Assembly (NCBI RefSeq): GCF_012027615.1
Contig: NZ_SNUT01000005.1
Location: forward strand, 1-64,000
DNA from: Thermococcus sp. 21S7
GTDB lineage: Archaea > Methanobacteriota_B > Thermococci > Thermococcales > Thermococcaceae
Length of the DNA: 64,000 bases
Reading direction: 5' to 3'
The notes under the pieces are model-generated. The model saw only the letters and a program-made list of their open reading frames with translations, had not been told where the DNA came from and searched no databases. Positions within the stretch are counted from its first letter, which is position 1, and every line of letters begins with the position of its first letter. Shown here one piece after another: positions 18,877 to 31,690 of the stretch. The position numbers were made by a program, and so were the translations under genes.

Positions 18877-18937
18877 ACGGTCAGTCCGTCACTCCATCAT
18901 CACGAGCCTCAGACAAGGCTGAAATCATCATCCCGGG
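18877..18937 (-). ncRNA. C/D box guide sRNA (2'-O-methylation guide), copy 1
   Basis: On the minus strand a canonical layout is seen: C box ATGATGA (18931-18925), 12-nt guide TTTCAGCCTTGT, D' box CTGA (18912-18909), 5-nt spacer, C' box GTGATGA (18903-18897), 12-nt guide TGGAGTGACGGA, D box CTGA (18884-18881). A TATA-like CTTTTAAG (18963-18956) lies about 25 bases before the expected 5' end. By the N+5 rule the D' guide fits 16S rRNA GCAAGGCUGAAA (one G-U pair; the G near E. coli 902). The D guide fits 16S CCCGUCACUCCA (the U equivalent to E. coli 1406). The rRNA sequences are recalled, not aligned. Confidence 0.87.
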
Positions 18938-18966
18938 AAAAGGTTGAGGATGGGCCTTAAAAGGGT

Positions 18967-19027
18967 TTGCTCAGCGATCACCTTTCCGTCCTCATCGATC
19001 GGTTCGCCCATCACTCATCATCGCGTT
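18967..19027 (-). ncRNA. C/D box guide sRNA, copy 2 (internal boxes degenerate)
   Basis: On the minus strand: C box ATGATGA (19021-19015), guide GTGATGGGCGAA, D'-like CCGA (19002-18999), guide GAAAGGTGATCG, D box CTGA (18974-18971). Every element is exactly 90 bp from its counterpart in copy 1, including the TATA-like GTTTTAAG (19053-19046). The C' box is weak (CGATGA overlapping the spacer). The D' guide can pair with 23S rRNA UUCGCCCAUUAA (nine Watson-Crick pairs, one G-U, one more pair). The D guide pairs for nine bases with the recalled 16S 3' end CGAUCACCU. This copy is less certain than copy 1. Confidence 0.62.
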
Positions 19028-19087
19028 CCGGGGTTCTCATGAGGGCTTAAAACGGTTGCCCAAAAATAAGTGAAGGAGGCAGTGGAG

Positions 19088-21442
19088 TCAGAACTCCAGC
19101 TCAAAGTCCCCGGGCTCGTGTTCGATCACAATGGTAAGAACCCCGTCCGAGAGGGACTCGTCCACGATTTTACCGCCGACGACCCTGACGTCTTCAACGT
19201 TCCTCAGCGCCACCTCACTGAGGTTCGAGAGATGGTTGCGGAGGTGGAGCACGTCGCCATCCCTGCAGAGGACGGTCGCGGTGGAGTAAACGACCTCGAC
19301 GTCGCCGTACCTGACCTCAAAGGGCAGGAAGAGAACGCCGCGCTTCCTCATCTCTATCCCGTCCATGAGCTTTGGAACCTCAGTCCCCCCGTACCGAACC
19401 TTCCCGAATACCCTGTGGCCGCGCGGATTGGCGAGGACAAGGTAGTTGCCGCGCGGAATCGCTATCATGTCCCTGTCCGTGACCTCGAAGTCCCGTTCAA
19501 TCCCCTGGAGGGACAGCAGTTTATCAACGAACTTTCTGTGGAGGTCGTGGTGGCTGCCGAAGTACTGGAGCCTGAAGCCGAGAACTACCGCGCTTCCCCT
19601 TCCCTTCCGAACGAGCGCCCCCACAGGCTTGCCGCTGGCGAATACTACCGGCGTTCCGCCCCGCACTTCTCTGACCACATTTCTCGTTATCATTCTGTCA
19701 ATCCCGTCCGAGGAGACGCTGACGAAGGGGATGAGCCTGACGTTGTCCCTCGCCTCCGCCGGCTCAACCTCAACGCCAAGGTAGTCTGCCAGGGTGGAGT
19801 ACGGCTTCATGTTCTCGTCCAGGTAGGGGAGCATCGGGAGGATTACGAGGTTGCCGCCCCGCTCAACGAACTCCACGAGCTTGTCCTGAACGTCTCTGGA
19901 CATGAAGTCGAGGCTGTAGACCCAGAGCTGGCCGTACGCCAACATCTCTCCGACGCTTGCCTCCTCAAGGTCGAGGACGTCGAAGGGGGCGTTGCTCATC
20001 GCCAGGAGCGTCAAAAGCCCGCGCTCTCCGAAGAGGTACTCGTTGAGGTTGACGCTCTCCTTAAGGCCATCCCTCAGTCCCCAGAGCGAGAGGGGCTCGT
20101 AGGGCTCGTAGGTTCCGAAGGCGAGCCTCGGCCTGAGCGGGCTTTCCACGAAACCTGGGTTGCCACTCAAAAATTCGCCGAGCCACCTAATAGGCTCGAC
20201 GTGCGGCCTCTCGCTTCCATCAAGACCGACCGGCGAGTAAACGTCCCAGGTTATTCCGTTGTGCGACTCGTAGCCTTCTGGATTCTCCCCGCCGGCGTAG
20301 AGGTAGTAGTTGATGTTGTGGATTCCGAGGGCCGGAAGGAGGGCGTAGAGCAGCTCCGCCTCGTCCGGCTCTATCGTGTGGGCCAGCGAGGCTTGAGTCT
20401 CTATGCTCAGAGGCGGCGTTCCGAGTTTTCTCTGATAGAAGCGGTAGATTCCGGTTTTGTAATAAATGTGCCCGAGCCTGTCCTCCTTGAAGTCAAAGGA
20501 GCGGTAGAAGGAGTACCAGAACTCTGTCCAGAGGTGGATATCGAGGTTCTTCTCACTCACGTAGCGGTAGAAGTGTTTCCAGGCCGCGAGGAGGAGGTAG
20601 GGGTCGAGTATGCTTATCGGGACGTCGATGTAGCGCTTGAGGTGGTCGTAGAGGGTCTCAACGTAGCGGTTGGTCATCCATATCTTGAAGCGGTGCCAGT
20701 CGAGGAGCTTCGGCAAAGGCTCGTTTTCGCTCGCCGGCGCGTAGACCTCGGAGTAGTCCCCGATTGGCCTTCCGTAGCGCTCGCCCAGTTCGTCGAGGGT
20801 GTAGTTTTCCCTGAGCCACTCCTCCCAGAGGCCGCCGGGTTTAACGACGACGTCGTTGTAGTCGGTGAGGAACGGCTGGAATATCGTTTCCCAGTAGGAC
20901 GGCTCGTCGTCTATGGAGACGCTTACTATCGGCCCCCCGTTGGTGTGGAGGTAGTCCCGGATTATCGGAAGAACCCCTTCGTACCAACGGGAGACGGCCT
21001 CCAGGTAGGTCGGGTGGAGGTATGTAATCGGCGGGTAGTAGATGTCCCGCGGCAGGGCGCCGTCCGGCCCCCTGGCGAGTATCTCCGGGTGCCCGTTGAT
21101 TAGCCATTCCGGAATTCCGCCGTTCCTCCACTCACCGCAGATGTAGGGGCCGGGCCTGACGATGGCGTGCATCCCCATCTCCTGAACCAGCTCAAGGAAG
21201 CCCACCAGGTCCCTCTGGGGGTGCGTCTCGCCAGTGAAGTCGAACTCACCATTTTCAGGCTCGTGCCAGTTCCAGGCGACGTAGGTGTCAACCGTGTTGA
21301 GGCCGTGCCTCCTCATTTTTTCCAGCCTGTCGCGCCAGTGCCTCCTCGGAATGCGGAAGAACTGGAGTGTTCCGCCGTAGATTACAACCCTCTCGCCGTC
21401 GATAACGTAAACCCTGCCGTCGTGCTCAACCTTCATGACCAT
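19088..21442 (-). CDS. glmA: Exo-beta-D-glucosaminidase, GH35-type
   Basis: GlmA removes glucosamine from the non-reducing end of chitosan oligosaccharides in the archaeal chitin pathway. The 784-residue protein starts with a TIM barrel resembling GH35 (GTLQFFRIP, VRPGPYICGEW). Glu180 (SIDDEPSYWE) and Glu348 (LSIETQA) align, with an offset of one, with the residues I recall as catalytic in T. kodakarensis GlmA. A beta-rich C-terminal half carries a glutamine-amidotransferase-like segment (about 440-590). ATG 21442 overlaps the glmD stop (TGATG). ATG 21436 is an alternative start. There is no signal peptide, so it acts in the cytoplasm, as last gene of the transporter operon. Confidence 0.93.
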   Translation of the reverse strand: MVMKVEHDGRVYVIDGERVVIYGGTLQFFRIPRRHWRDRLEKMRRHGLNTVDTYVAWNWHEPENGEFDFTGETHPQRDLVGFLELVQEMGMHAIVRPGPYICGEWRNGGIPEWLINGHPEILARGPDGALPRDIYYPPITYLHPTYLEAVSRWYEGVLPIIRDYLHTNGGPIVSVSIDDEPSYWETIFQPFLTDYNDVVVKPGGLWEEWLRENYTLDELGERYGRPIGDYSEVYAPASENEPLPKLLDWHRFKIWMTNRYVETLYDHLKRYIDVPISILDPYLLLAAWKHFYRYVSEKNLDIHLWTEFWYSFYRSFDFKEDRLGHIYYKTGIYRFYQRKLGTPPLSIETQASLAHTIEPDEAELLYALLPALGIHNINYYLYAGGENPEGYESHNGITWDVYSPVGLDGSERPHVEPIRWLGEFLSGNPGFVESPLRPRLAFGTYEPYEPLSLWGLRDGLKESVNLNEYLFGERGLLTLLAMSNAPFDVLDLEEASVGEMLAYGQLWVYSLDFMSRDVQDKLVEFVERGGNLVILPMLPYLDENMKPYSTLADYLGVEVEPAEARDNVRLIPFVSVSSDGIDRMITRNVVREVRGGTPVVFASGKPVGALVRKGRGSAVVLGFRLQYFGSHHDLHRKFVDKLLSLQGIERDFEVTDRDMIAIPRGNYLVLANPRGHRVFGKVRYGGTEVPKLMDGIEMRKRGVLFLPFEVRYGDVEVVYSTATVLCRDGDVLHLRNHLSNLSEVALRNVEDVRVVGGKIVDESLSDGVLTIVIEHEPGDFELEF

Positions 21443-22422
21443 CACCACTTCACCACCTTGCTCAGAAACCTCGGCCTGTCGGGGTTGAGTCCGCGCCCAA
21501 CGGCCTTGTAGTAGGCCAGGAGCTGGATAACCGGCAGGTAGAGAACCACGTTGGCCGGCGGGCTCAGCCCCGGAACCTCGATAAAGTAATCGGCTCCCGT
21601 ATCGCGCCTTCCAACGGTGAGAACCTTCGCACCCTGGTCTTGGAACTCCTCCGTGAGCTTTTCGTGCCACTCGAAGGGCTCGTCCACGAGGAGAACGACG
21701 AGCGTTCCGTCGTCGGCTATGGACTTGAAGCCGTGTCTGACCTCGAAGGTCTGGTATGCCTCGCTCCAGAAGAGGGCCATCTCCTTCATCTTCAGCATCG
21801 CCTCAAGTGCCACCGGATGGAGGATTCCCGAGCCGAGGAAGATGACGTTCCTGAAGTCGAAGCCGCTGACGATTTCCCTGATGTAGTCCTCGCTCCGCAG
21901 GACTTCTTTCGTTAGTTCCGAGACGAGTTCCGCGTCGTAGGTTTCCCGCCCGTACGAACGGAGGAGAAGCTGCAGGAAGGCGAAGTAGAAGGCCGTGAAG
22001 GAGTGGGTCATTACGACGCTCTCCTCGTGGGCAGGAACGATTAGGGCGTGGTCGGCTTCCCTTGAGAGTGTGCTTTCGTACGCCGTAAGGGCGAACCTGG
22101 GAACGTTCAGGGCATCGAGGGCCTTTATGGCCTCCGTGGTCTCGCCGGAGCGGGAGATGGCCACGAGAAGTTCGGGATTTCCTATTGGGTACCACTCCCT
22201 CGAATACAAAAGTTCGGAGCAGGGGGCGCTGAACCCCCTGCCCCCGAGGCGGGTGGTTGCCATGGCCAGCGGCTGCGACAGGAAGTGTGAACTGCCACAG
22301 CCAGTGTAAACTATCTCCCTCGGTAACCGGAAGTCGTGATTGGCTATGAAATCCTCAAAGGCCTTTTGAGCCTTCTTTATTCCCTCTGGGGTCTTTCTAA
22401 TCTCCCTAATCGTCGAGTGCAT
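21442..22422 (-). CDS. glmD: Glucosamine-6-phosphate deaminase, SIS-domain type
   Basis: This enzyme converts glucosamine 6-phosphate to fructose 6-phosphate and ammonia, the entry of chitin carbon into glycolysis. The 326-residue protein has two SIS domains: YTGCGSSHF and [11 protein letters not shown] in the first, [13 protein letters not shown] and LVDEPFEWH in the second. Unlike bacterial NagB it belongs to the isomerase domain of the GlmS superfamily. ATG 22422 follows GGGGGTGAG at good spacing and starts just after the oppF stop. The length matches the T. kodakarensis enzyme as I recall it. Confidence 0.93.
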
Positions 22423-22423
22423 C

Positions 22424-23386
22424 TCACTCACCCCCGTGGAGATGACAGGCAACCCAGTGGTTCTTCTCGACCTCGCGGAGCTCGGGGCGAACCTTGAAGC
22501 AGACGTCCTTGGCCTTCGGACACCTCGGTGCGTAGCGGCATCCGGCTATCTCGTAGATGCCGCGCTCCTCCTTCTCGGGCTCGATTCCCCTGAACTCCCA
22601 CTTGACGTTCAAATCGGGAACGCTCTCCAGGAGCATCCTGGTGTACGGGTGGAGCGGATTGTGAAACACCTTCTCCGTGTCGCCCATCTCGACGATGGTT
22701 CCGCGGTACATGATTATCGTCGAGTCGCTGATGTAGTAGCCGAGCGCCAGGTCATGGGTAACGAAGAGAACCGAGGTGTCGTGCCTGTCCCTGAAGTCGC
22801 CGAGGAGGTTGAGGATGTCGATTCTGGTCGACGCGTCGAGCATCGAAACCGCCTCGTCCGCTATTAGGAGCTTCGGCTTCAGCAGCAATGCCCTCGCAAT
22901 GAGGATTCTCTGAAGCTGTCCGCCGCTGAGCTGGTGCGGGAACTTGCCGCGCACCTCGTCGGGGTTGAGGCCGACCTGGATGAGCGCCTTGTCGATCATG
23001 TCGTCGCGCTCGCCCCTGCTGACGTCCGTGAGGTAGGAGTCGAAGACGAGGTCGAAGGCCCGGTCTATCGGGTGGAGCGGGTTGAAGCTCGCGAAGGGAT
23101 CCTGGAAAACGGCCTGGACGTCCCTGTAGTACTCCCTCCTCAGCTGCTTCTTGCTCAGCCCGGTTACGTCACGACCCTCGAAGAGTATCCTCCCGGAGGT
23201 GGGCTTTATCAGCCGGAGTATGAGCTTTCCGACGGTGGTTTTTCCGCTCCCGCTCTCGCCGACGAGGGAAACTATCTCGCCCTTTCCGATGGTGAAGCTG
23301 ACGCCGTCAACCGCCCGGATTTCAAAGCCGCCGATCAGGCCCGATGTGAATACCTTGGTCAGGTGTTCGACTTCGAGAAGGCTCAT
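22424..23386 (-). CDS. Oligopeptide/dipeptide-type ABC transporter ATPase (OppF/DppF)
   Basis: One of two ATPases of the importer. Walker A is GESGSGKTT, the signature is LSGGQLQRI and Walker B is LLIADEAVS. The D-loop reads MLDAST and the H-loop Asp-His (VTHDLALGY). The C-terminal oligopeptide-transporter extension holds four cysteines around [14 protein letters not shown], which in relatives bind an iron-sulfur cluster. Its ATG overlaps the oppD stop by four bases. Given glmD and glmA next in the operon, the cargo is probably a chitobiose-type sugar rather than peptide. Confidence 0.92.
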
Positions 23387-24348
23387 TGCTCCTCACCCCC
23401 GAGTAGATGGCATGCCGCGTAGTGGCTCTCACCGATCTTCACAAGGCTGGGCTCAACGTGCGGGCACCTGTCGAGGGCGTAGGGACAGCGGGTGTAGAAG
23501 CGGCACCCCTTCGGCGGTTTGAGGAGGCTTATCGGGTAGCCGGGAATTCCCTTGAGCTTCTGCTTCCTGTACTGCACCCCCATCCTCGGCAGGGAGTTGA
23601 GGAGGAGCTGGGTGTACGGGTGGCTCGGCTCGTTGATGAGTTCATCCGTGGGGCCGATTTCGACGACCTTGCCAGCGTACATGATCATTATCCTGTCCGC
23701 TATCTTGTCGAGTATGGCCAGGTCGTGGGTGACGAAGATTATCGACCTGACTATGCCCTCCTCCATGAAGTGGTGGAGCAGCTCGATGACTACTCTCTGA
23801 GTCGTGACGTCGAGGGCCGAGGTTACCTCGTCGGCGATGAGCAGGTCGGGGTTGAGGAGCGTTGAGACAACCATGGTGGCGCGCTGGCGCATTCCGCCGC
23901 TCAGCTCGACTGGATACATGTCCGCAACCTTGGGGCTGAGCTTCACCATAGCCAGCCTCTCGCGGAGGAGCTTCTCGACCTCCTCCCTGTCCGAGTGGCC
24001 GTGCTCCCTGGCCAAGTCCCAGACTATGTCCTTTATCTTCTTGGTCGGGTTGAGGGCGTTCATCGCGTACTGGGGGATTATTGAGAGTTCGCTGTAGCGT
24101 ATTTTTCTGGCCTCTTCCTCGCTCAGCCTCATCAAATCCCTGCCTTTGAAGATCGCCTTTCCGCCCATGTGAACCATCGGCGGCTTCCTGAGTATGAGGG
24201 AGTGCACGAGGGTTGATTTTCCGCAGCCGCTCTCGCCGGCTATGCCGAAGACTTCCCCCTCCTTGACCTCAAAGGAAACCCCGTCAACGGCCTTTACGTG
24301 GCCGACGGGAGTTGCGTAGTAAATTCTTAGGTTCTCAACGGTGAGCAT
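23383..24348 (-). CDS. Oligopeptide/dipeptide-type ABC transporter ATPase (OppD/DppD)
   Basis: This is the second ATPase (321 residues), pairing with the OppF-type subunit. Walker A is GESGCGKST, the signature is LSGGMRQRA, Walker B is LLIADEVTS and the switch histidine is in VTHDLAIL. The C-terminal extension carries the cysteine group CRFYTRCPYALDRC. The ATG lies within the oppC stop region behind GAGGAGGG. It is part of the five-gene importer of the chitin island. Confidence 0.92.
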   Translation of the reverse strand: MLTVENLRIYYATPVGHVKAVDGVSFEVKEGEVFGIAGESGCGKSTLVHSLILRKPPMVHMGGKAIFKGRDLMRLSEEEARKIRYSELSIIPQYAMNALNPTKKIKDIVWDLAREHGHSDREEVEKLLRERLAMVKLSPKVADMYPVELSGGMRQRATMVVSTLLNPDLLIADEVTSALDVTTQRVVIELLHHFMEEGIVRSIIFVTHDLAILDKIADRIMIMYAGKVVEIGPTDELINEPSHPYTQLLLNSLPRMGVQYRKQKLKGIPGYPISLLKPPKGCRFYTRCPYALDRCPHVEPSLVKIGESHYAACHLLGGEEQ

Positions 24349-24349
24349 G

Positions 24350-25288
24350 TCATTCCCTCCTCAGCCTCGGATTGAACACCTCTTCCATGCCCAGGTTGAT
24401 GAAGAACAACGCTGTGATGATGAGGGTGATTATCAGCCCGGGCGGGATGAACCACCACCACCAGCCGAACTGGAGGGCGTTGTGGGCTATCGCCTTCTGG
24501 AGTATCGTTCCCAGCGATACCGCCGTCGTTGGGCCGAGGCCTATGAAGTCGAGCGTCGCCGAGGCGAGTATCGCGCCGCTGAACTGCAGGATTCCGACCA
24601 TGAAGATGTAGGAAATCATGTTGGGCATTATCTCCTCGAAGATTATCCTGAGGTCGCTGAGGCCGACTATCCGCGCCAGGTTCACAAACTCGCGGTTCTT
24701 CAGCGAGAGGGTCTGGGAGCGAACTGCCCTGGCCACCCACGGCCAGCCGGTTAGGCCTATGATGAGCGCCTGAACCTCGGGGCTTCTGGCTTCGAGGTAG
24801 GCCGCGACCAGTATCAGGAGCACTATCGACGGGATGACCAGCATTATGTTGACGAACATCATGAGCAGCTCGTCGGTCAGCCCGCCCTTGTAGCCCGCGA
24901 TGAAGCCTATGGTAATTCCGAGTGCGGTTCCAATCACCGCAGCCAGCACCGCCACCCAGAGGCTCGTTCTCAGACCGTAGACGAGGAGGGCGTAGAGGTC
25001 CTTTCCGAGCTTGTCGGTTCCGAGGATGTGGAGGACCTCAACCTGGTTGCCAGTGTATGTCGTAAGGTTCTCGTGGGTCATCGGCGGGAGCGTTTTGGCG
25101 GAGTACGTCGCCACCGTGATGTTCGTTCCGGGTATGGTCTCGTAGTAGAGGCCATCGCTGGAGAACACGGTGAACATGGGCCCGACTATGGCGAACGCCA
25201 CGAAGAACAGGAGTACCCCGAAGCCGAAGCGGAACTTGTTGTTCCTCATTGCGAGTTTTAACTTGTAGAGCCTGCTCTCCCTGGCCAT
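24350..25288 (-). CDS. ABC transporter permease (OppC/DppC)
   Basis: This 312-residue membrane subunit has an N-terminal span (about 20-42), an extracytoplasmic region (45-110) and five more spans. The EAA loop is VNLARIVGLSDLRIIFEEIMPN (about 205-226) and contacts the ATPases. ATG 25288 is preferred to TTG 25294 because GGAGGG then has proper spacing. The gene starts one codon after the oppB stop. It forms the translocation path with OppB. Confidence 0.9.
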   Translation of the reverse strand: MARESRLYKLKLAMRNNKFRFGFGVLLFFVAFAIVGPMFTVFSSDGLYYETIPGTNITVATYSAKTLPPMTHENLTTYTGNQVEVLHILGTDKLGKDLYALLVYGLRTSLWVAVLAAVIGTALGITIGFIAGYKGGLTDELLMMFVNIMLVIPSIVLLILVAAYLEARSPEVQALIIGLTGWPWVARAVRSQTLSLKNREFVNLARIVGLSDLRIIFEEIMPNMISYIFMVGILQFSGAILASATLDFIGLGPTTAVSLGTILQKAIAHNALQFGWWWWFIPPGLIITLIITALFFINLGMEEVFNPRLRRE

Positions 25289-25290
25289 CT

Positions 25291-26283
25291 TCAACCCTCC
25301 GTGTAGCTCGTTCTGACGCGCGGGTCGATGAAGGCGTAGACTATGTCTATGATGAAGTTCGCCGCGAGAACCGAGATTACGACCATGAGGAACGCGCCCT
25401 GGAGCAGGAAGTAGTCCTGGCTCAGCGCCGCGTTCATTAGGAGTATGCCTATCCCCGGGTAGTTGAAGACTATTTCCGTCGCTATGGCTCCGGCAACCAT
25501 CAGGCCGAGCTGTAAAGCGAGACCGGTGACCTGAGGCAGTATGGCGTTCCTGTAGGCGTGGCTGGTCATCAGTCTCTCGCTCGCGCCGAGTGCCTCAAGG
25601 TAGCGGACGTAGTCGGCCTCAAGCTCGTAGATTATCATGTTGCGCATTCCTATGGCCCAGCTCCCTATCATGACTATGAACAGGCTCAGGAAGGGGAGTA
25701 TCCAGTGGGAGATGAAGCTCTTTATGAACTCCCACGAGAAGCTGGGGAGCAGGGAAGGGTCGTAGGCGCCCTGGTAGGGGAGCCATCCGGCCCTGACCCC
25801 GACGAAGTAGACGAGGAGCATGGCGAACCAGAAGTAGGGCATGCTCGCGAGGAAGTAGAAAACGGGCATCATGTAGCGGTCGTACTTCTTATTCTTACCC
25901 GCTATCGCGCCCAGCCAGTTTCCGACCAGCCAGCTGAGCGCTATGGCAGGGAGGAGGATGGCGATATCATAGGGAAGGGCGTGCTTGATTAAATCCCATA
26001 CGGGGGCCTTGTAGAGGAGGCTGTAGCCCAGGTCCCCGTGGAAGAGCCTGACCCAGAAGTTCACGAACTGCCTCCAGAGGGGCTCGTTGAGCCCGTAAAG
26101 CTCCTCGTAGAATTTAATCAGTATCTCCTTCTCGCCGGGGGCAAGGTTGAGGTTTGATTCTATCATGGCCTCTATAGGGTTGCCGGGCATGAGCCTGGGC
26201 AGGAGCCAGTTGAGCGTAACCGCGAACAGGAAAGTTATCGCGTAAACGAGGGTTTTCCTGGCGAGATACTTCCTGAACCCCAT
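25291..26283 (-). CDS. ABC transporter permease (OppB/DppB)
   Basis: This 330-residue permease has six spans. The conserved N terminus FLFAVTLNWLLPRLMPGNPIE and the EAA-like loop YVRYLEALGASERLMTSHAYR are typical of OppB. GGGAGGG precedes the ATG. Between oppA and this gene are 43 bases holding a T-rich tract (CTTTTTCTTCC, minus strand) and a TTTATAAC box. These could lower read-through from oppA and offer an internal promoter, so that the binding protein is made in excess. Confidence 0.9.
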   Translation of the reverse strand: MGFRKYLARKTLVYAITFLFAVTLNWLLPRLMPGNPIEAMIESNLNLAPGEKEILIKFYEELYGLNEPLWRQFVNFWVRLFHGDLGYSLLYKAPVWDLIKHALPYDIAILLPAIALSWLVGNWLGAIAGKNKKYDRYMMPVFYFLASMPYFWFAMLLVYFVGVRAGWLPYQGAYDPSLLPSFSWEFIKSFISHWILPFLSLFIVMIGSWAIGMRNMIIYELEADYVRYLEALGASERLMTSHAYRNAILPQVTGLALQLGLMVAGAIATEIVFNYPGIGILLMNAALSQDYFLLQGAFLMVVISVLAANFIIDIVYAFIDPRVRTSYTEG

Positions 26284-26326
26284 TGCTTTCCCTCCCGTTA
26301 TAAACTGTCAAAAGGAAGAAAAAGCG

Positions 26327-28246
26327 TCAGCGCCTCCTCCTCAGAAGGAGGGGCACAGCCGCCAGCAGCACCAAGGCGGCCGGACCGCAGGTGCTACCTC
26401 CGCCGGATGTGGTTGTGGTGGGCGAGCTCGATGAGGTAGTGCTCGGGCTGCTGGTCGTCGGTGAGGTGGTCGAGGGCGTGGTAGTGGTGGTCGGGCTCGG
26501 TGAACTGGTCGTCGTGGTTGTCGTCGGGGTCGGCGTGGCCGGCGGGTTCTCGTTGTACATCAGGCTGTAGTAGACGCTGTACGGGTCGGGCTTGAAGGTT
26601 CCGGCCCAGTGGAGCGCGAGGTCGAAGTCGCCGCCGTTGAGCTTCTGCATGAAGAAGTTGGTCCAGTCGCCCTTGTCTATGACGACCTTGATTCCGAGGG
26701 GCTTGAGCTGGTTGGCTATAATCTCGCCCGCCTGTATCCAGTCAGAACAGCCGGAGCAGGTTACGAAGTGAAGCTCAAGGGGCTTTCCGTTGTACTCCCT
26801 GATGCCGTCGCCGTCGGTGTCCTTGATGCCCAGCTTGTCGAGTATCTTTATCGCGTCGGCTATGTCCCCGTACTTCCAGCCGTACTCGTTGATGAGGTCC
26901 TTGGCGCCTATCTTCTCCTTCCAGCCCTGCATGATGGGTCCGAGCGGGGTCTGGTCCGGGACGGCGCTTATCGGGCCCTGCTGGACGATCTGCTGCGGGT
27001 TGATGGCCATGGCTATCGCCTTCCTGACCTCGGGGTTGTTGAGGGGCTCGCGCTGGGTGTTGAAGTAGAGAACCACCGGAACGACGGGCGGGAAGTAGGG
27101 CTCGGTGTCGAGCCAGCTGACGATGTTCGGGTTCTGCTTCTTGAGCTCGGCGATGTCCATGTAGTAGGTGGCGACGTCGAGGTCGCCCTTGAGGAACATG
27201 TTGGCGGCCTGGTCGTTGCTCGAAACGTAGAGCTGGATGATGTACTTGGCGGCGGGCTTCTGGAAGTACTTCGCCCCCCACCAGTCGTCGTTCCTCTCAA
27301 GGATGGACTTCTGCTGCTGGACGACCTCCTTGAGCCTGTAAGCTCCGGAACCGACGAGGTACTTCTTGTCATCGCCGGTGAATGTCATGGTCTTGACCTT
27401 CTCGGGGTCAAGGCTCTCGAAGACGTGCTTCGGGATGATGAGAACGGAGTAGAGGTTGCTCCTCCAGGCCCAGACGTTGGGTTTACCCTCAAAAACAAAG
27501 TCAACCGTTCTGTCATCAACGACTTTCACCTCCTTGAGACCGATGGAACCCCAGTCTTTGAGGCCGAGCTTCTCGTAGTACTCGAAGGAGAACTTCACAT
27601 CCTCGGCCGTCAGAGGCTGATCGTCCTGCCACTTAAGGCCGTCCCTGAGCTTGACCTCGAAGGTGTTGCCGTTCACCCAGGTGCCGCTCTCGGCGAGCCA
27701 GGGCTTCAGCTCCGTCGTCATGAAGTTCAGCATGAAGAGGGGCTCAAAAACGAGGCCATCGATGCCGATTATGTTGCCACCCTGGAAGGGGTTGGCGCTG
27801 GTCGGGGGAGCGCTGTTGGCGGTGTATATCGTCTCGTGCCTCGGGAAGTCACCGCCGCCGTTGTCCTGAACGCCCGTCGGCTTGACGCCCAGGAGCGCGA
27901 GTGCGGTTCCCCACGTTCCAAAGCCCGCCCAGAATATCGGGACACCGTAGGGGTTCTTTTCGTTGGGCCAGTCCTTCCAGTACTTGGTGTTGGCCTCGTA
28001 GAAGACCGTACCCGTGTAAACGGGAACGGCAGGAACGTCCTGGAGCCATATCTTCGTCAGCTCCTTCAGGTACTCGACCTGTTTGTTCTCATCGGAGGTA
28101 GTTGCGAGGGCCTTAAGGAGCTCGTTGGCCTTGGCGTTGTAATAGTTGCCAAAGTTGGCTGGACCCTTCTCCTCGGCGGCGCTTGCAAAACCGGCTAAGC
28201 TCCCAAGCAGAAGAGCCACCAGGGCAAGGGTGAGGTACTTTTTCAT
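26327..28246 (-). CDS. Solute-binding protein of the chitin-island ABC transporter, segments in permuted order
   Basis: A 639-residue family 5 (peptide/oligosaccharide) binding lipoprotein-like protein. After the signal peptide (1-23), residues 24-125 carry what is normally the C-terminal end of the domain (NAKANELLKAL...DVPAVPVYTGTVFYEANTKYW). The usual N-terminal part follows from residue 126 (HETIYTANSAPPTSANPF, then TAEDVKFSFEYYEK) and runs to about 570. It meets the Thr/Ser-rich linker directly. A CGP-type anchor (STCGPAALVLLAAVPLLLRRRR, residues 618-639) ends the protein. The order signal-C-B-linker instead of signal-B-C-linker suggests circular permutation or a rearranged assembly. ATG 28246 follows GAGGTGGG. 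Confidence 0.88.
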   Translation of the reverse strand: MKKYLTLALVALLLGSLAGFASAAEEKGPANFGNYYNAKANELLKALATTSDENKQVEYLKELTKIWLQDVPAVPVYTGTVFYEANTKYWKDWPNEKNPYGVPIFWAGFGTWGTALALLGVKPTGVQDNGGGDFPRHETIYTANSAPPTSANPFQGGNIIGIDGLVFEPLFMLNFMTTELKPWLAESGTWVNGNTFEVKLRDGLKWQDDQPLTAEDVKFSFEYYEKLGLKDWGSIGLKEVKVVDDRTVDFVFEGKPNVWAWRSNLYSVLIIPKHVFESLDPEKVKTMTFTGDDKKYLVGSGAYRLKEVVQQQKSILERNDDWWGAKYFQKPAAKYIIQLYVSSNDQAANMFLKGDLDVATYYMDIAELKKQNPNIVSWLDTEPYFPPVVPVVLYFNTQREPLNNPEVRKAIAMAINPQQIVQQGPISAVPDQTPLGPIMQGWKEKIGAKDLINEYGWKYGDIADAIKILDKLGIKDTDGDGIREYNGKPLELHFVTCSGCSDWIQAGEIIANQLKPLGIKVVIDKGDWTNFFMQKLNGGDFDLALHWAGTFKPDPYSVYYSLMYNENPPATPTPTTTTTTSSPSPTTTTTPSTTSPTTSSPSTTSSSSPTTTTSGGGSTCGPAALVLLAAVPLLLRRRR

Positions 28247-28260
28247 AGTTTCCCACCTCA

Positions 28261-28284
28261 TTATAAACAATGTCAATTTTATAA
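28261..28284. promoter_or_regulatory. Candidate chitin-regulon element at the oppA promoter (TTATAA-N12-TTATAA)
   Basis: TTATAA at 28261-28266 and again at 28279-28284, separated by 12 bases. It lies between a TATA box (GCTTATATAG, 28296-28305) and the oppA ATG, near the expected transcription start. The same spacing recurs at the GH1 and dac promoters. Either hexamer could itself act as a TATA box. Confidence 0.5.
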
Positions 28285-28412
28285 CATGGGGGAAATCTAT
28301 ATAAGCTTTTTGGTGAACAGGATGGGTATACAATGCACATAAACGTCCGGAAGAACAGGAACGGTGAGCGCAGCTGCCGCACCACAGCGTCACGGCAGCG
28401 CGAGTAGGAAAA

Positions 28413-28436
28413 TTATAAAAACACCAAAATCTATAA
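28413..28436. promoter_or_regulatory. Candidate chitin-regulon element at the GH1 promoter (TTATAA-N12-CTATAA)
   Basis: TTATAA at 28413-28418 and CTATAA at 28431-28436, 12 bases apart and about 18-40 bases upstream of the GH1 ATG. The first hexamer is well placed to be the TATA box, with the second over the start region. The rest of the 207-base gap between oppA and this gene shows no other feature I can support. Confidence 0.45.
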
Positions 28437-28453
28437 ATGCCCAGGTGGAACCG

Positions 28454-29926
28454 ATGGAAGAATTTTACTGGGGCGTCGTTCAGTCGGCCTTTCAGTTCGA
28501 GATGGGCGATCCGCTCAGGCGGAACATAGACGCAAGGAGCGACTGGTGGCAGTGGGTTCGCGACCCCTTCAACATCAAGAACGACCTCGTCAGCGGCGAT
28601 CTGCCCGAGGACGGCATAAACAATTATGAACTTTACGAAATCGACCACAGGCTCGCCAAGGACATGGGTTTGAACGCCTACCAGCTCACGATAGAGTGGA
28701 GCAGAATCTTCCCGTGCCCGACCTTCGGCGTCGATGCCGAGGTTGAGAGGGACTCCTACGGCCTGATAAAGCGCGTTAAACTCAAGAAGGAAGCCCTAGA
28801 GGAACTCGACGGACTGGCCAACCGTTCAGAGGTCGCCCACTATCGGGCCGTGCTGAAGAACCTCAAAAAGCTCGGCTTCTCGACCTTCGTGACGCTCAAC
28901 CATCAGACCCTGCCCGTGTGGCTCCACAACCCCATCGAGGTGAGGAGGGACTTCGAGGGAGCGAGGGCCAGGGGCTGGGCTGACGAGGAGAGCATAGTCG
29001 AGTTCGTTAAGTTCTCGGCGTACGTTGCGTGGAAGTTCTCCGATTTGGTGGATTTCTGGGCCACCTTCGACGAACCGATGGTTACCGTTGAGCTCGGCTA
29101 CCTCGCCCCCTACGTCGGCTGGCCGCCCGGGATACTAAACCCCAACGCGGCGAAGAAGGTTATAATTCACCAGATGGTGGCACATGCAAGGGCATACGAT
29201 GCGATAAAGGAGTTCTCGAAGGCGCCGGTGGGGATAATCCTCAACATAATCCCCGCCTATCCCCTGAACCCGAGGGACGAGCGGGACGTCAAAGCGGCTG
29301 AAAACTACGACTACTTCCACAACAGGCTCTTCCTCGATGCCCTGAACGAGGGGAGGGTGGACCTGGAACTGAACTGGGAGGGGGTTAAAATCAACCACCT
29401 GGCCAGAAACGACTGGATAGGGAACAACTACTACACCAGGGAGGTTGTTAAGTGGGTCGAGCCGAAGTTCAAGGAGCTGCCCATGGTAAGCTTTGTCGGA
29501 GCGGAGGGCTATGGCTATTCCGGAAACCCGATGGGGGTCTCGCCCGACAACAATCCAACCAGCGACTTCGGCTGGGAGGTCTATCCGAAAGGTATATACG
29601 ACTCGACGATGATAGCCGCGGAGTACGGGAAGCCGGTCTACATAACCGAGAACGGGGTGGCGGACTCCAAGGACATACTGAGGCCGCGGTACATAGTCAG
29701 CCACGTGAGGGAGCTGTTCAGGGCGATTGAGAACGGCGCCGACGTCCGGGGCTACTTCCACTGGGCGCTGACTGACAACTACGAGTGGGCGATGGGGTTC
29801 AAGATACGCTTCGGCCTCTACGAGGTCGACCTGATAACCAAGGAGAGAATCCCGCGCAGAAAGAGCGTGGAGACGTATAGGAGAATCGTCACGGAGGGGT
29901 TGGGAGATGAAAACGATAGCAGTTGA
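28454..29926 (+). CDS. GH1 beta-glycosidase (beta-glucosidase/mannosidase type)
   Basis: This 490-residue cytoplasmic retaining glycosidase has acid/base Glu in TFDEPMV and nucleophile Glu in YITENGVADS. The usual Asn before the acid/base Glu is Asp, a feature I also recall in the P. furiosus beta-mannosidase, which it resembles strongly at the C terminus (HWALTDNYEWAMGFKIRFGLY). ATG 28454 is behind AGGTGG at 28443. It is divergent from oppA. In T. kodakarensis a GH1 gene sits at the same place in the chitin cluster (from memory), where it may cleave beta-linked disaccharides. Confidence 0.9.
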   Translation: MEEFYWGVVQSAFQFEMGDPLRRNIDARSDWWQWVRDPFNIKNDLVSGDLPEDGINNYELYEIDHRLAKDMGLNAYQLTIEWSRIFPCPTFGVDAEVERDSYGLIKRVKLKKEALEELDGLANRSEVAHYRAVLKNLKKLGFSTFVTLNHQTLPVWLHNPIEVRRDFEGARARGWADEESIVEFVKFSAYVAWKFSDLVDFWATFDEPMVTVELGYLAPYVGWPPGILNPNAAKKVIIHQMVAHARAYDAIKEFSKAPVGIILNIIPAYPLNPRDERDVKAAENYDYFHNRLFLDALNEGRVDLELNWEGVKINHLARNDWIGNNYYTREVVKWVEPKFKELPMVSFVGAEGYGYSGNPMGVSPDNNPTSDFGWEVYPKGIYDSTMIAAEYGKPVYITENGVADSKDILRPRYIVSHVRELFRAIENGADVRGYFHWALTDNYEWAMGFKIRFGLYEVDLITKERIPRRKSVETYRRIVTEGLGDENDSS

Positions 29927-30116
29927 TGAGAGCACCTGGAAGAAGATAAAGCTCCTCAAGGACAAGCTTGAGGCCCGCTCCTACGATGAGGTGCTCCAGA
30001 AGCTCATAGAGACCTGGCACCTCGTCGAGCTCGACAAGAAGGTTGACAACGTCATAATGGACGACGAAGAGGCCGAGATGCTCATCAACCTGCTCGAAAA
30101 GAAGAAGGGGAGTTGA
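29907..30116 (+). CDS. VapB-like antitoxin
   Basis: A 69-residue protein beginning with a ribbon-helix-helix-like segment (KTIAVDESTWKKIKLLKDKL, about 2-21), followed by ARSYDEVLQKLIETW and a charged helical tail. This is the usual plan of archaeal VapB antitoxins. It overlaps the GH1 3' end by 20 bases and ends four bases before the PIN-domain gene, so it is co-transcribed with the glycosidase. Confidence 0.75.
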   Translation: MKTIAVDESTWKKIKLLKDKLEARSYDEVLQKLIETWHLVELDKKVDNVIMDDEEAEMLINLLEKKKGS

Positions 30117-30119
30117 AGC

Positions 30120-30569
30120 ATGCCGCTCCCATCGGAGATAACCTTCGACAGCCGGACGCTCCTCAGGATGCATACCGCGGGCAGGAAGAGACAGCTGGAG
30201 ATAACGCTGGCCAAGTTCACGGTATCCCTCTCAGTAATCACGCTCTACCGCTACCTCTCGGTTCGGGCGTACCTTAAGAAAAACGTCGAGAGGGAGCTGG
30301 AGGTACTGCGGGACATCTACACGATAGTCCCCCTGAGCGATGAGATACTCGTCAAAGCCGCCCAGATAGAGGCCCAGCTCCTTCAGAAGGGAAAGATGCT
30401 CGACCTTGAGGACATTCTCACCGCCGCAACGGCAATCTGCACGGGCAGTCTGCTCGTCACGGACGACCCCAAGAGGTACGAATGCATCAGGCAGTTCGGC
30501 CTGGACACGATGCCCCTGGAAAAGTTCCTGGGAGAACTTGAGATAATGGTAAAGATGGAGCTGGGCTAA
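30120..30569 (+). CDS. VapC-like PIN-domain protein
   Basis: This 149-residue PIN domain is paired with the antitoxin-like gene. Active toxins are metal-dependent RNases with four acidic residues. Here Asp10 (TFDSRTLL), Asp98 (LDLEDIL) and Asp115/116 (VTDDPKRY) are kept. The position usually holding Glu in the SVITLYE segment is Arg44 (SVITLYRYL). The RNase may therefore be weak or inactive. The length is slightly above the usual 130. It overlaps the convergent dac gene by four bases. Confidence 0.8.
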
Positions 30570-31366
30570 ATCAGCTCCGCGAAGGGCGTTATGTGCAGGA
30601 ACATGCCGGGCATGAAGCGCAGCCCCTCGGCGTACTTCACCCCCGCCTTTTTACCGTAGTAGAGCGCCACCGTTCTCAGGAAGGGCTCCCATTTCTCCCA
30701 GACGTCATCGGTGAACTGGCTTCTGTGGGCCCGTATCGCCCTCAGCTTCAGCTCCATGACGTCAGTGATATCAACGAAATAGTTTGGCCTCGCCGTGTAG
30801 TAGAAGCCGAAGACCTCGACCTGGTGGGGTTTCAGGCCGGCCGCCGCGTCCGTGCTCCCGAAGTTGGGGAGCTGGGAGAAGGCCACGGCGTCGAGGGCCA
30901 GAAAGCCCGCCCTTCTGTGGTCTGGATGCGCCTCGTAGGGGAGCCAGGGGTCGGGAGCGAGAACCGCGTCGGGCTTTTCAGCGCGGATTACCTTTACCAG
31001 GTCTTTTCTGACCTCCCTCGTGTAGGGGAGCTCAGTGTCCCTGTAACCGAGCCAGATTATCCTTTTGACGCCGAGCATCCCCGCGCTCTCTTCCTCCTCG
31101 CGCCTCCGGATGAGAGCAAGCTCGTGGGAGCTCAGGTCGTCGTCAAGGGTTCCCATTGAGCCGTCGGTCATGCAGACGTAGAGGACCTCTATTCCATCAT
31201 CGGTCAGCTTCTTTATCGTTCCGCCAAGGCCTATGACGCAGTCGTCCGGGTGGGGCTCGATGCACAGAACCTTTTCGACTTCCTCAAATGGATTCGAGAG
31301 GTCGAATTCAAGCTCTTCGAGGAGCTTTTCAAAGGCCTCATCAAAGTTATCGATGTCCTCGAACAT
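30566..31366 (-). CDS. dac: Diacetylchitobiose deacetylase, LmbE/PIG-L family
   Basis: Dac removes the acetyl group from the non-reducing GlcNAc of diacetylchitobiose and also deacetylates GlcNAc, preparing substrate for GlmA. The zinc site is HPDD (His39, Asp42) with the later His of HPDHRRAG. The [11 protein letters not shown] and [13 protein letters not shown] segments agree with my memory of the T. kodakarensis enzyme. ATG 31366 (266 residues) is chosen over GTG 31399 by length and because the family begins at [11 protein letters not shown]. Its promoter has the TTATAA-N12-TTATAA element shared with oppA. Confidence 0.92.
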
Positions 31367-31399
31367 CGCCAACACCGCCTCAACGTTGTACGCCAGCAC

Positions 31400-31423
31400 T
31401 TATAAATATGGCGGTAGTTATAA
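31400..31423. promoter_or_regulatory. Candidate chitin-regulon element at the dac promoter (TTATAA-N12-TTATAA)
   Basis: Two TTATAA hexamers (31400-31405 and 31418-31423) separated by 12 bases. Together with the outer C and G they form the inverted repeat CTTATAA-N12-TTATAAG. The element is 34-57 bases upstream of the dac ATG on the minus strand, overlapping the TATA region. Confidence 0.5.
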
Positions 31424-31424
31424 G

Positions 31425-31690
31425 TTTAGCAGAAGATATAACTGCTCGGTTGAAGATGCCTCCCCGGATGTTGAGGAACTGACCTCCTCCCCTGCTTGTA
31501 TTGGTCGTTCCTGAGGAGGATTAAAGGCTTCCTCTTCACGTCCTCCTTGAGATAGCTCGGTTTTGGTTTTTAGGCTTTAGAAGAGTGCCGCTTTCTGCTT
31601 AAAGGCCAGCTGGCTGTTTACTGCATCCCCGCGGTGAACGGCGAGGCTTGGAGAAAGAAAAATGTAAAAACTTAAACCCTCAGTTCCAAA
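31425..31690. other. Non-coding gap, possible decayed IS200/IS605-type remnant
   Basis: No gene is supportable here. The stretch has several TnpB-element-like pieces: a CTCCTCCCC tract near 31482 and GTGAACGGCGAGGCTTG at 31634-31650, preceded by CCCCGC so that a short stem can form. A close copy of the latter lies at 48189-48205. A TATA box (GTTTATAG near 31695) for the flippase gene follows. I infer a remnant of an insertion element at the border between the chitin and glycan islands. Confidence 0.35.
31634..31650 (+). repeat. Dispersed 17-bp repeat, copy 1
   Basis: GTGAACGGCGAGGCTTG. The copy at 48189-48205 on the other strand differs at one base. The sequence resembles the right-end stem region of archaeal TnpB-carrying elements, where the scaffold RNA ends. 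Confidence 0.45.

Follow-up and report, generated by a model that had tools for sequence, protein, structure and literature searches.

A circularly permuted family 5 solute-binding protein in the chitin gene cluster of Thermococcus

Natural circular permutants are usually spotted between distant homologues, at a stage where one can no longer read how and when the rearrangement came about or what it cost. Among tethered binding proteins of ABC importers, a natural circular permutation has been described for Treponema pallidum Tp0684 (TpMglB-2, "cluster Bc"), and its authors suggested that such a topology may be an adaptation to membrane anchoring (PMC4990184). The protein described here, encoded in a 64,000-nucleotide stretch of the Thermococcus sp. 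21S7 genome (the whole stretch is referred to as the window), resembles TpMglB-2 in being a circularly permuted, membrane-anchored binding protein. However, TpMglB-2 is a bacterial, glucose-binding protein of the Type I (cluster B) fold whose permuted part is hardly similar to unpermuted relatives, whereas the window protein falls in family 5 and its own orthologues are still 80 to 90% identical. All best sequence and structure matches of the window protein are to family 5 (cluster C) rather than to the Type I (cluster B) fold. In the open-access literature searched, no report of a permuted family 5 binding protein or of the window protein itself was found.

The closest solved structures are those of the mannoside-binding proteins TM1223/TM1226 of Thermotoga maritima (1vr5, 4pft, and 4pfu), which match both blocks at about 34% identity but are unpermuted and bacterial and bind mannosides. 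The Vibrio chitin oligosaccharide-binding protein (1zty, 5yqw, and 7ebi) has the family 5 fold and a chitin oligosaccharide ligand, both of which are presumed for the window protein, and 1zty matches a profile of the unpermuted relatives with an E value of 8e-61; it is likewise bacterial and unpermuted and is only about 22 to 24% identical. Far closer are the unpermuted binding proteins of the Thermococcus chitin cluster (L011 to L032), which agree with the window protein in locus, neighbors, signal peptide, linker, and anchor type. In these proteins, block B (the N-terminal and central portion of the canonical domain; 64 to 89% identity to the window protein) precedes block A (the canonical C-terminal segment; about 64 to 80% identity), and the VQDxxGG connector of the permuted form is lacking. 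Permuted and unpermuted alleles occur at one locus within one genus at 80 to 90% identity and with readable junctions, in three permuted versus about thirty unpermuted copies. This makes the locus an unusually fresh natural case of a rewired chain order in which the fold was apparently kept, and it opens three questions to experiment: how a protein can keep working when its chain order changes, whether substitutions near new termini compensate for it, and whether shifting the tether alters a binding-protein importer.

The permuted gene occupies positions 26327 to 28246 on the reverse strand, the strand of all gene parts given below, with an open frame of 639 amino acids from an ATG at 28246. 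Pfam SBP_bac_5 (PF00496), the middle domain of family 5, matches residues 179 to 566 (E = 7e-76; 256 bits against a cutoff of 32). The order along the chain is signal peptide, block A, block B, Ser/Thr linker, and CGP-CTERM anchor, compared with signal peptide, B, A, linker, and anchor in the homologues. The signal peptide (residues 1 to 23; 28178 to 28246) is in its usual place and resembles those of the unpermuted orthologues. Block A (residues 24 to 125; 27872 to 28177), which now stands in front, was delimited by identity to the nearest orthologues and by alignment to residues 442 to 540 of 4pfu. It carries the domain-closing motifs EKGPANFGNYYN...DVPAVPVY...YEANTKYWKDWP...LGVKPTG, and a check against the sequence upheld the coordinates assigned to it in the preliminary description. 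A new connector, VQDNGGG (residues 126 to 132; 27851 to 27871), bridges the former C and N termini and is seen only in the three permuted copies, as VQDNGGG, VQDDAGG, and VQDDTGG (VQDxxGG); it is absent from unpermuted orthologues. Block B (residues 133 to 569; 26540 to 27850) was delimited by identity to the unpermuted orthologues and by alignment to residues 4 to 432 of 4pfu. Sequence and orthologue comparison place the Ser/Thr/Pro-rich linker (26393 to 26539) in its usual position, now joined to B, and the CGP-CTERM anchor follows (residues 619 to 638; 26333 to 26392; TIGR04288, 29.2 bits against a cutoff of 21).

The three joints can be read from the sequence. At the first, the signal peptide sequence ...GCC GAG GAC is joined to GAC AAG GG..., possibly by a crossover at the common GAC codon followed by substitution. 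At the second, VQDxxGG is added ahead of the native DFPR. The canonical N terminus had been proposed to follow block A directly, from 27871; it does come after A, but HETIYTANSAPP (HETIY) begins only at 27838, preceded by the new joint (VQDNGGG, 27871 to 27851) and the native start of B (DFPR, 27850 to 27839). At the third, MYNEN is fused to the Pro/Thr linker, in keeping with the earlier placement of the linker directly after MYNENPPA near 26536. The new chain ends sit in a variable loop, MYYKNETDKGAANF, which lies between B and A in the unpermuted order, and the old termini are bridged by VQDxxGG. A GCCG-like microhomology, previously noted at all three joints, was found within 12 nucleotides of each joint in the window but not at the second joint of Thermococcus indicus, and it is too short to weigh; we did not retain it.

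To establish the block order across genomes, both blocks were searched by tblastn against 30 Thermococcus loci. The order A-B was found in three genomes (that of the window, G004, and T. indicus), and B-A was found in the 27 others. A query spanning the junction matched 33 of the 115 genomes of the phylum sample, and only the same three matched it over the full length as one piece. None of the weak homologues within the window's own genome (L002 to L004) has the permuted order. Compared with the nearest unpermuted orthologues, block A is 74 to 80% and block B 83 to 89% identical, with the blocks in opposite order. On the Thermotoga structure 4pfu, residues 135 to 564 align with 4 to 432 and residues 28 to 124 with 442 to 540 (E = 1e-75 and 7e-11), so that both segments are homologous to one reference in swapped order; a profile of the unpermuted relatives aligns with those solved structures over the whole length. 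These block identities to opposite-order orthologues and the swapped-order E values place the permutation far beyond chance. The circular permutation first suspected from the window alone is thus borne out by same-locus orthologues and solved structures, and sequence comparison confirms it as real. In the window protein, the last 100 residues of the canonical family 5 domain precede the rest. The gene is encoded with two permeases and two oligopeptide-type ATPases, as befits family 5 (cluster C), and by these comparisons the protein is a permuted derivative of that family, not a canonical member.

Whether built from the whole domain or from block B, trees group the three permuted copies in one clade (support of 99/100 and 100/99). 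Block A is short, and its protein tree leaves the clade unresolved, whereas its nucleotide tree recovers it (100/99); the two blocks give the clade somewhat different positions. Species markers (rpoB, EF-2, and rpoA1) instead place the window genome with the unpermuted G019, and G004 and T. indicus in a different clade, and they reject the permuted clade (AU test, P = 2.5e-52). Rejection comes from the flanking cluster genes as well (P = 1e-51 and 9e-69), though only marginally from the adjacent permeases (P = 0.064), whereas the segments of the binding protein itself favor the permuted clade (100/100 and 100/99). In a sliding comparison of identity, the window is clearly nearest to the other permuted copies between about 28200 and 27300, and downstream of this it is equally near to G019. 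The simplest reading is a single origin with later replacement of unpermuted alleles by homologous recombination, which would indicate that a permuted allele can pass between species through ordinary recombination. We consider it highly probable that the gene encodes a natural, functional permuted binding protein of the Thermococcus chitin-oligosaccharide ABC importer, which arose in one event and whose allele then spread in this way. From an ancestral domain of order B-A, the chain would have been reopened in a Thermococcus ancestor within the B/A loop (MYYKNETDKGAANF) and its old ends linked by the short connector, with the signal peptide and the C-terminal anchor keeping their places at the gene ends. 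The permuted chain would fold into the same two-lobed clamp, capture chitin oligosaccharides, and pass them to the conserved permeases, and its tether would now exit from the end of B. After this one event, homologous recombination at the conserved chitin cluster would have carried the permuted allele into other Thermococcus lineages, where it took the place of unpermuted ones.

Several other explanations were weighed against this reading. The window genome is a 48-contig draft, and reads of a conserved gene might have been joined in the wrong order, a mis-assembly that the preliminary description had allowed. However, the same order occurs in a third assembly (G004, a 70-contig draft) and in the complete genome of T. 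indicus; the three separate assemblies come from well-diverged species, and their junctions are alike, sharing joint residues, but diverged. An open frame and low dN/dS across the joints are also not expected from mis-joining. Because the A-B order stands on the single-contig, 2.2-Mb chromosome of T. indicus, we reject an assembly artefact, which is excluded for practical purposes. A real but decaying, nonfunctional rearrangement product might be suspected from the G004 copy, one of the three, in which the linker carries a frameshift; the sequence is repetitive at that point and the genome is a draft, however, and the other frame still encodes the anchor. Pairwise dN/dS within the permuted group is 0.03 to 0.08 in A and 0.09 to 0.13 in B. 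At positions invariant in the unpermuted orthologues (193 in B and 43 in A), the permuted copies lose at most four in B and one in A, so that nearly all invariant residues are kept in all three copies. These values indicate that the permuted gene is under purifying selection. No close unpermuted second copy was found elsewhere in the window's genome, so the permuted gene is its only close copy, and the partner importer is intact. We therefore regard decay as very unlikely. Two or more independent permutations at the same site in different Thermococcus lineages would account for three host species that do not form a clade, but the copies have the same breakpoints and connector and form one gene clade for the whole domain and for block B, which makes repeated origin extremely improbable.

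Block A might instead derive from a different, foreign allele, which would make the gene a chimera and not a simple permutation. The nucleotide tree of A hints at this: it sets the permuted copies outside the unpermuted group in which B nests them, and forced agreement is rejected (P = 0.011). Nevertheless, the synonymous divergence of A between permuted and unpermuted copies (0.88) equals the level among unpermuted copies (0.86), whereas its nonsynonymous divergence is 2.9-fold higher. Normal synonymous combined with raised nonsynonymous divergence implies faster amino acid change, not an older donor; the synonymous distances do not support an older origin, and we set the foreign donor aside as improbable. 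Within B the nonsynonymous excess is smaller, at 1.9-fold in the first part and 1.5-fold in the remainder, and 9 of the 11 fixed amino acid differences in A fall in alignment columns 6 to 25, adjoining the new N terminus. This pattern suggests that amino acids changed more quickly on the permuted stem, most of all in block A right behind the new N terminus, although it is suggestive only, because the choice of region followed inspection of the data and divergence at synonymous sites is already considerable. Recombination inside B that left the chain order intact could have lowered the divergence in its second part. Regarding the route at the DNA level, general models of circular permutation (duplication; fission and fusion) and their predictions have been reviewed (PMC3320104). 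The end product here fits either model, with the difference that only an internal domain is permuted while signal peptide and anchor stay in place. Fission and fusion at the permutation point was discarded: no relative with separate A and B genes was seen, and one split orthologue (G101) has the order B-A and breaks inside B. We lean towards a route in which B-A was duplicated internally and the first B and the last A were then lost, in line with the tandem duplication and partial deletion raised in the preliminary description. Transfer of block A by one cut-and-paste event, or by its excision and reinsertion, seems the less likely course; it would agree with the clean breakpoints, with the lack of any duplicate remnant in the permuted gene, and with the lack of duplicated or half-trimmed intermediates (A-B-A or B-A-B-A) among the 33 matching genomes, but it demands a precise in-frame reinsertion in one step. 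Missing intermediates do not exclude duplication, because such forms would be short-lived and easily missed.

Two observations on single copies concern gene integrity. In G004 (L009), the frameshift in the Ser/Thr linker shifts the frame off the CGP-CTERM anchor, either by sequencing error or by real loss of the anchor. In G101, which belongs to another Thermococcaceae genus (L189, 1385 to 3394), a break inside block B divides the unpermuted orthologue into two open frames, and the frame of the C-terminal anchor continues into unrelated sequence; it is probably a decaying gene.

To examine whether the two blocks can complete one fold, as had been suggested, structures were predicted by AlphaFold2. 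Confidence was equal for both orders (permuted domain, pLDDT of 88.3; unpermuted orthologue, 88.0; pTM of 0.87 for both), with the permuted alignment built from relatives cut into blocks, and the moved block has nearly identical secondary-structure elements in the two models. In Foldseek comparisons, which keep chain order, the unpermuted model aligned with 1vr5 over 551 columns (TM score of 0.90), and the permuted model aligned over 429 columns (TM score of 0.66), approximately the length of block B. The permuted model is thus of high confidence, its block B matches solved structures, and the permuted protein is predicted to keep the two-lobed clamp fold. In the permuted chain the anchor follows the end of B, whereas before the permutation it followed the end of A. 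Judged by the domain boundaries of OppA, the new ends should be on the C-terminal lobe and the old ones on the N-terminal lobe. Speculatively, and in our judgment rather doubtfully, the permutation may have been adaptive: shifting the tether and the N terminus away from the lobe that bore the ancestral ends, to the opposite lobe of the clamp (the B/A loop), might have altered sugar presentation to the permease, with a burst of compensating substitutions by the new N terminus and spread of the allele between Thermococcus species.

The surrounding genes point to the likely ligand. Downstream of the binding protein gene, on the same strand, lie two permeases of the importer (25291 to 26283 and 24350 to 25294; both PF00528), two ATPases with oligopeptide-type C-terminal regions (23383 to 24348 and 22424 to 23386; both PF00005 and PF08352), the glucosamine-6-phosphate deaminase GlmD (21442 to 22452; NF041128 above cutoff), and the exo-beta-D-glucosaminidase GlmA (19088 to 21430; NF041127 above cutoff). 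On the other side, a GH1 beta-glycosidase is transcribed divergently on the forward strand (28364 to 29926; NF041004 above cutoff; PF00232), followed by a PIG-L family deacetylase on the reverse strand (30566 to 31399; PF02585), a probable diacetylchitobiose deacetylase by its cluster context. The order PIG-L deacetylase, PIN protein, GH1 glycosidase, binding protein, two permeases, ATPases, GlmD, and GlmA is the same in eight other genomes. For T. kodakarensis, a pathway of deacetylase and exo-glucosaminidase is outlined as background in PMC3575233. Given this context and the relatedness to the Vibrio chitin-oligosaccharide binding proteins, we infer that the ligand is chitin oligosaccharides, delivered to the ABC importer. 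The VapC-like PIN-domain protein (30120 to 30569, forward strand) lies within the cluster in all eight genomes compared and has no obvious role in chitin use. A paralogous second family of unpermuted binding proteins (L033 to L037; about 42% identity) is present in several Thermococcus genomes. The whole chitin cluster (18900 to 31500 in the window) is mosaic among Thermococcus genomes, G004, for example, being close to the window there although it is not so in rpoB, a pattern pointing to repeated recombination or transfer of the cluster.
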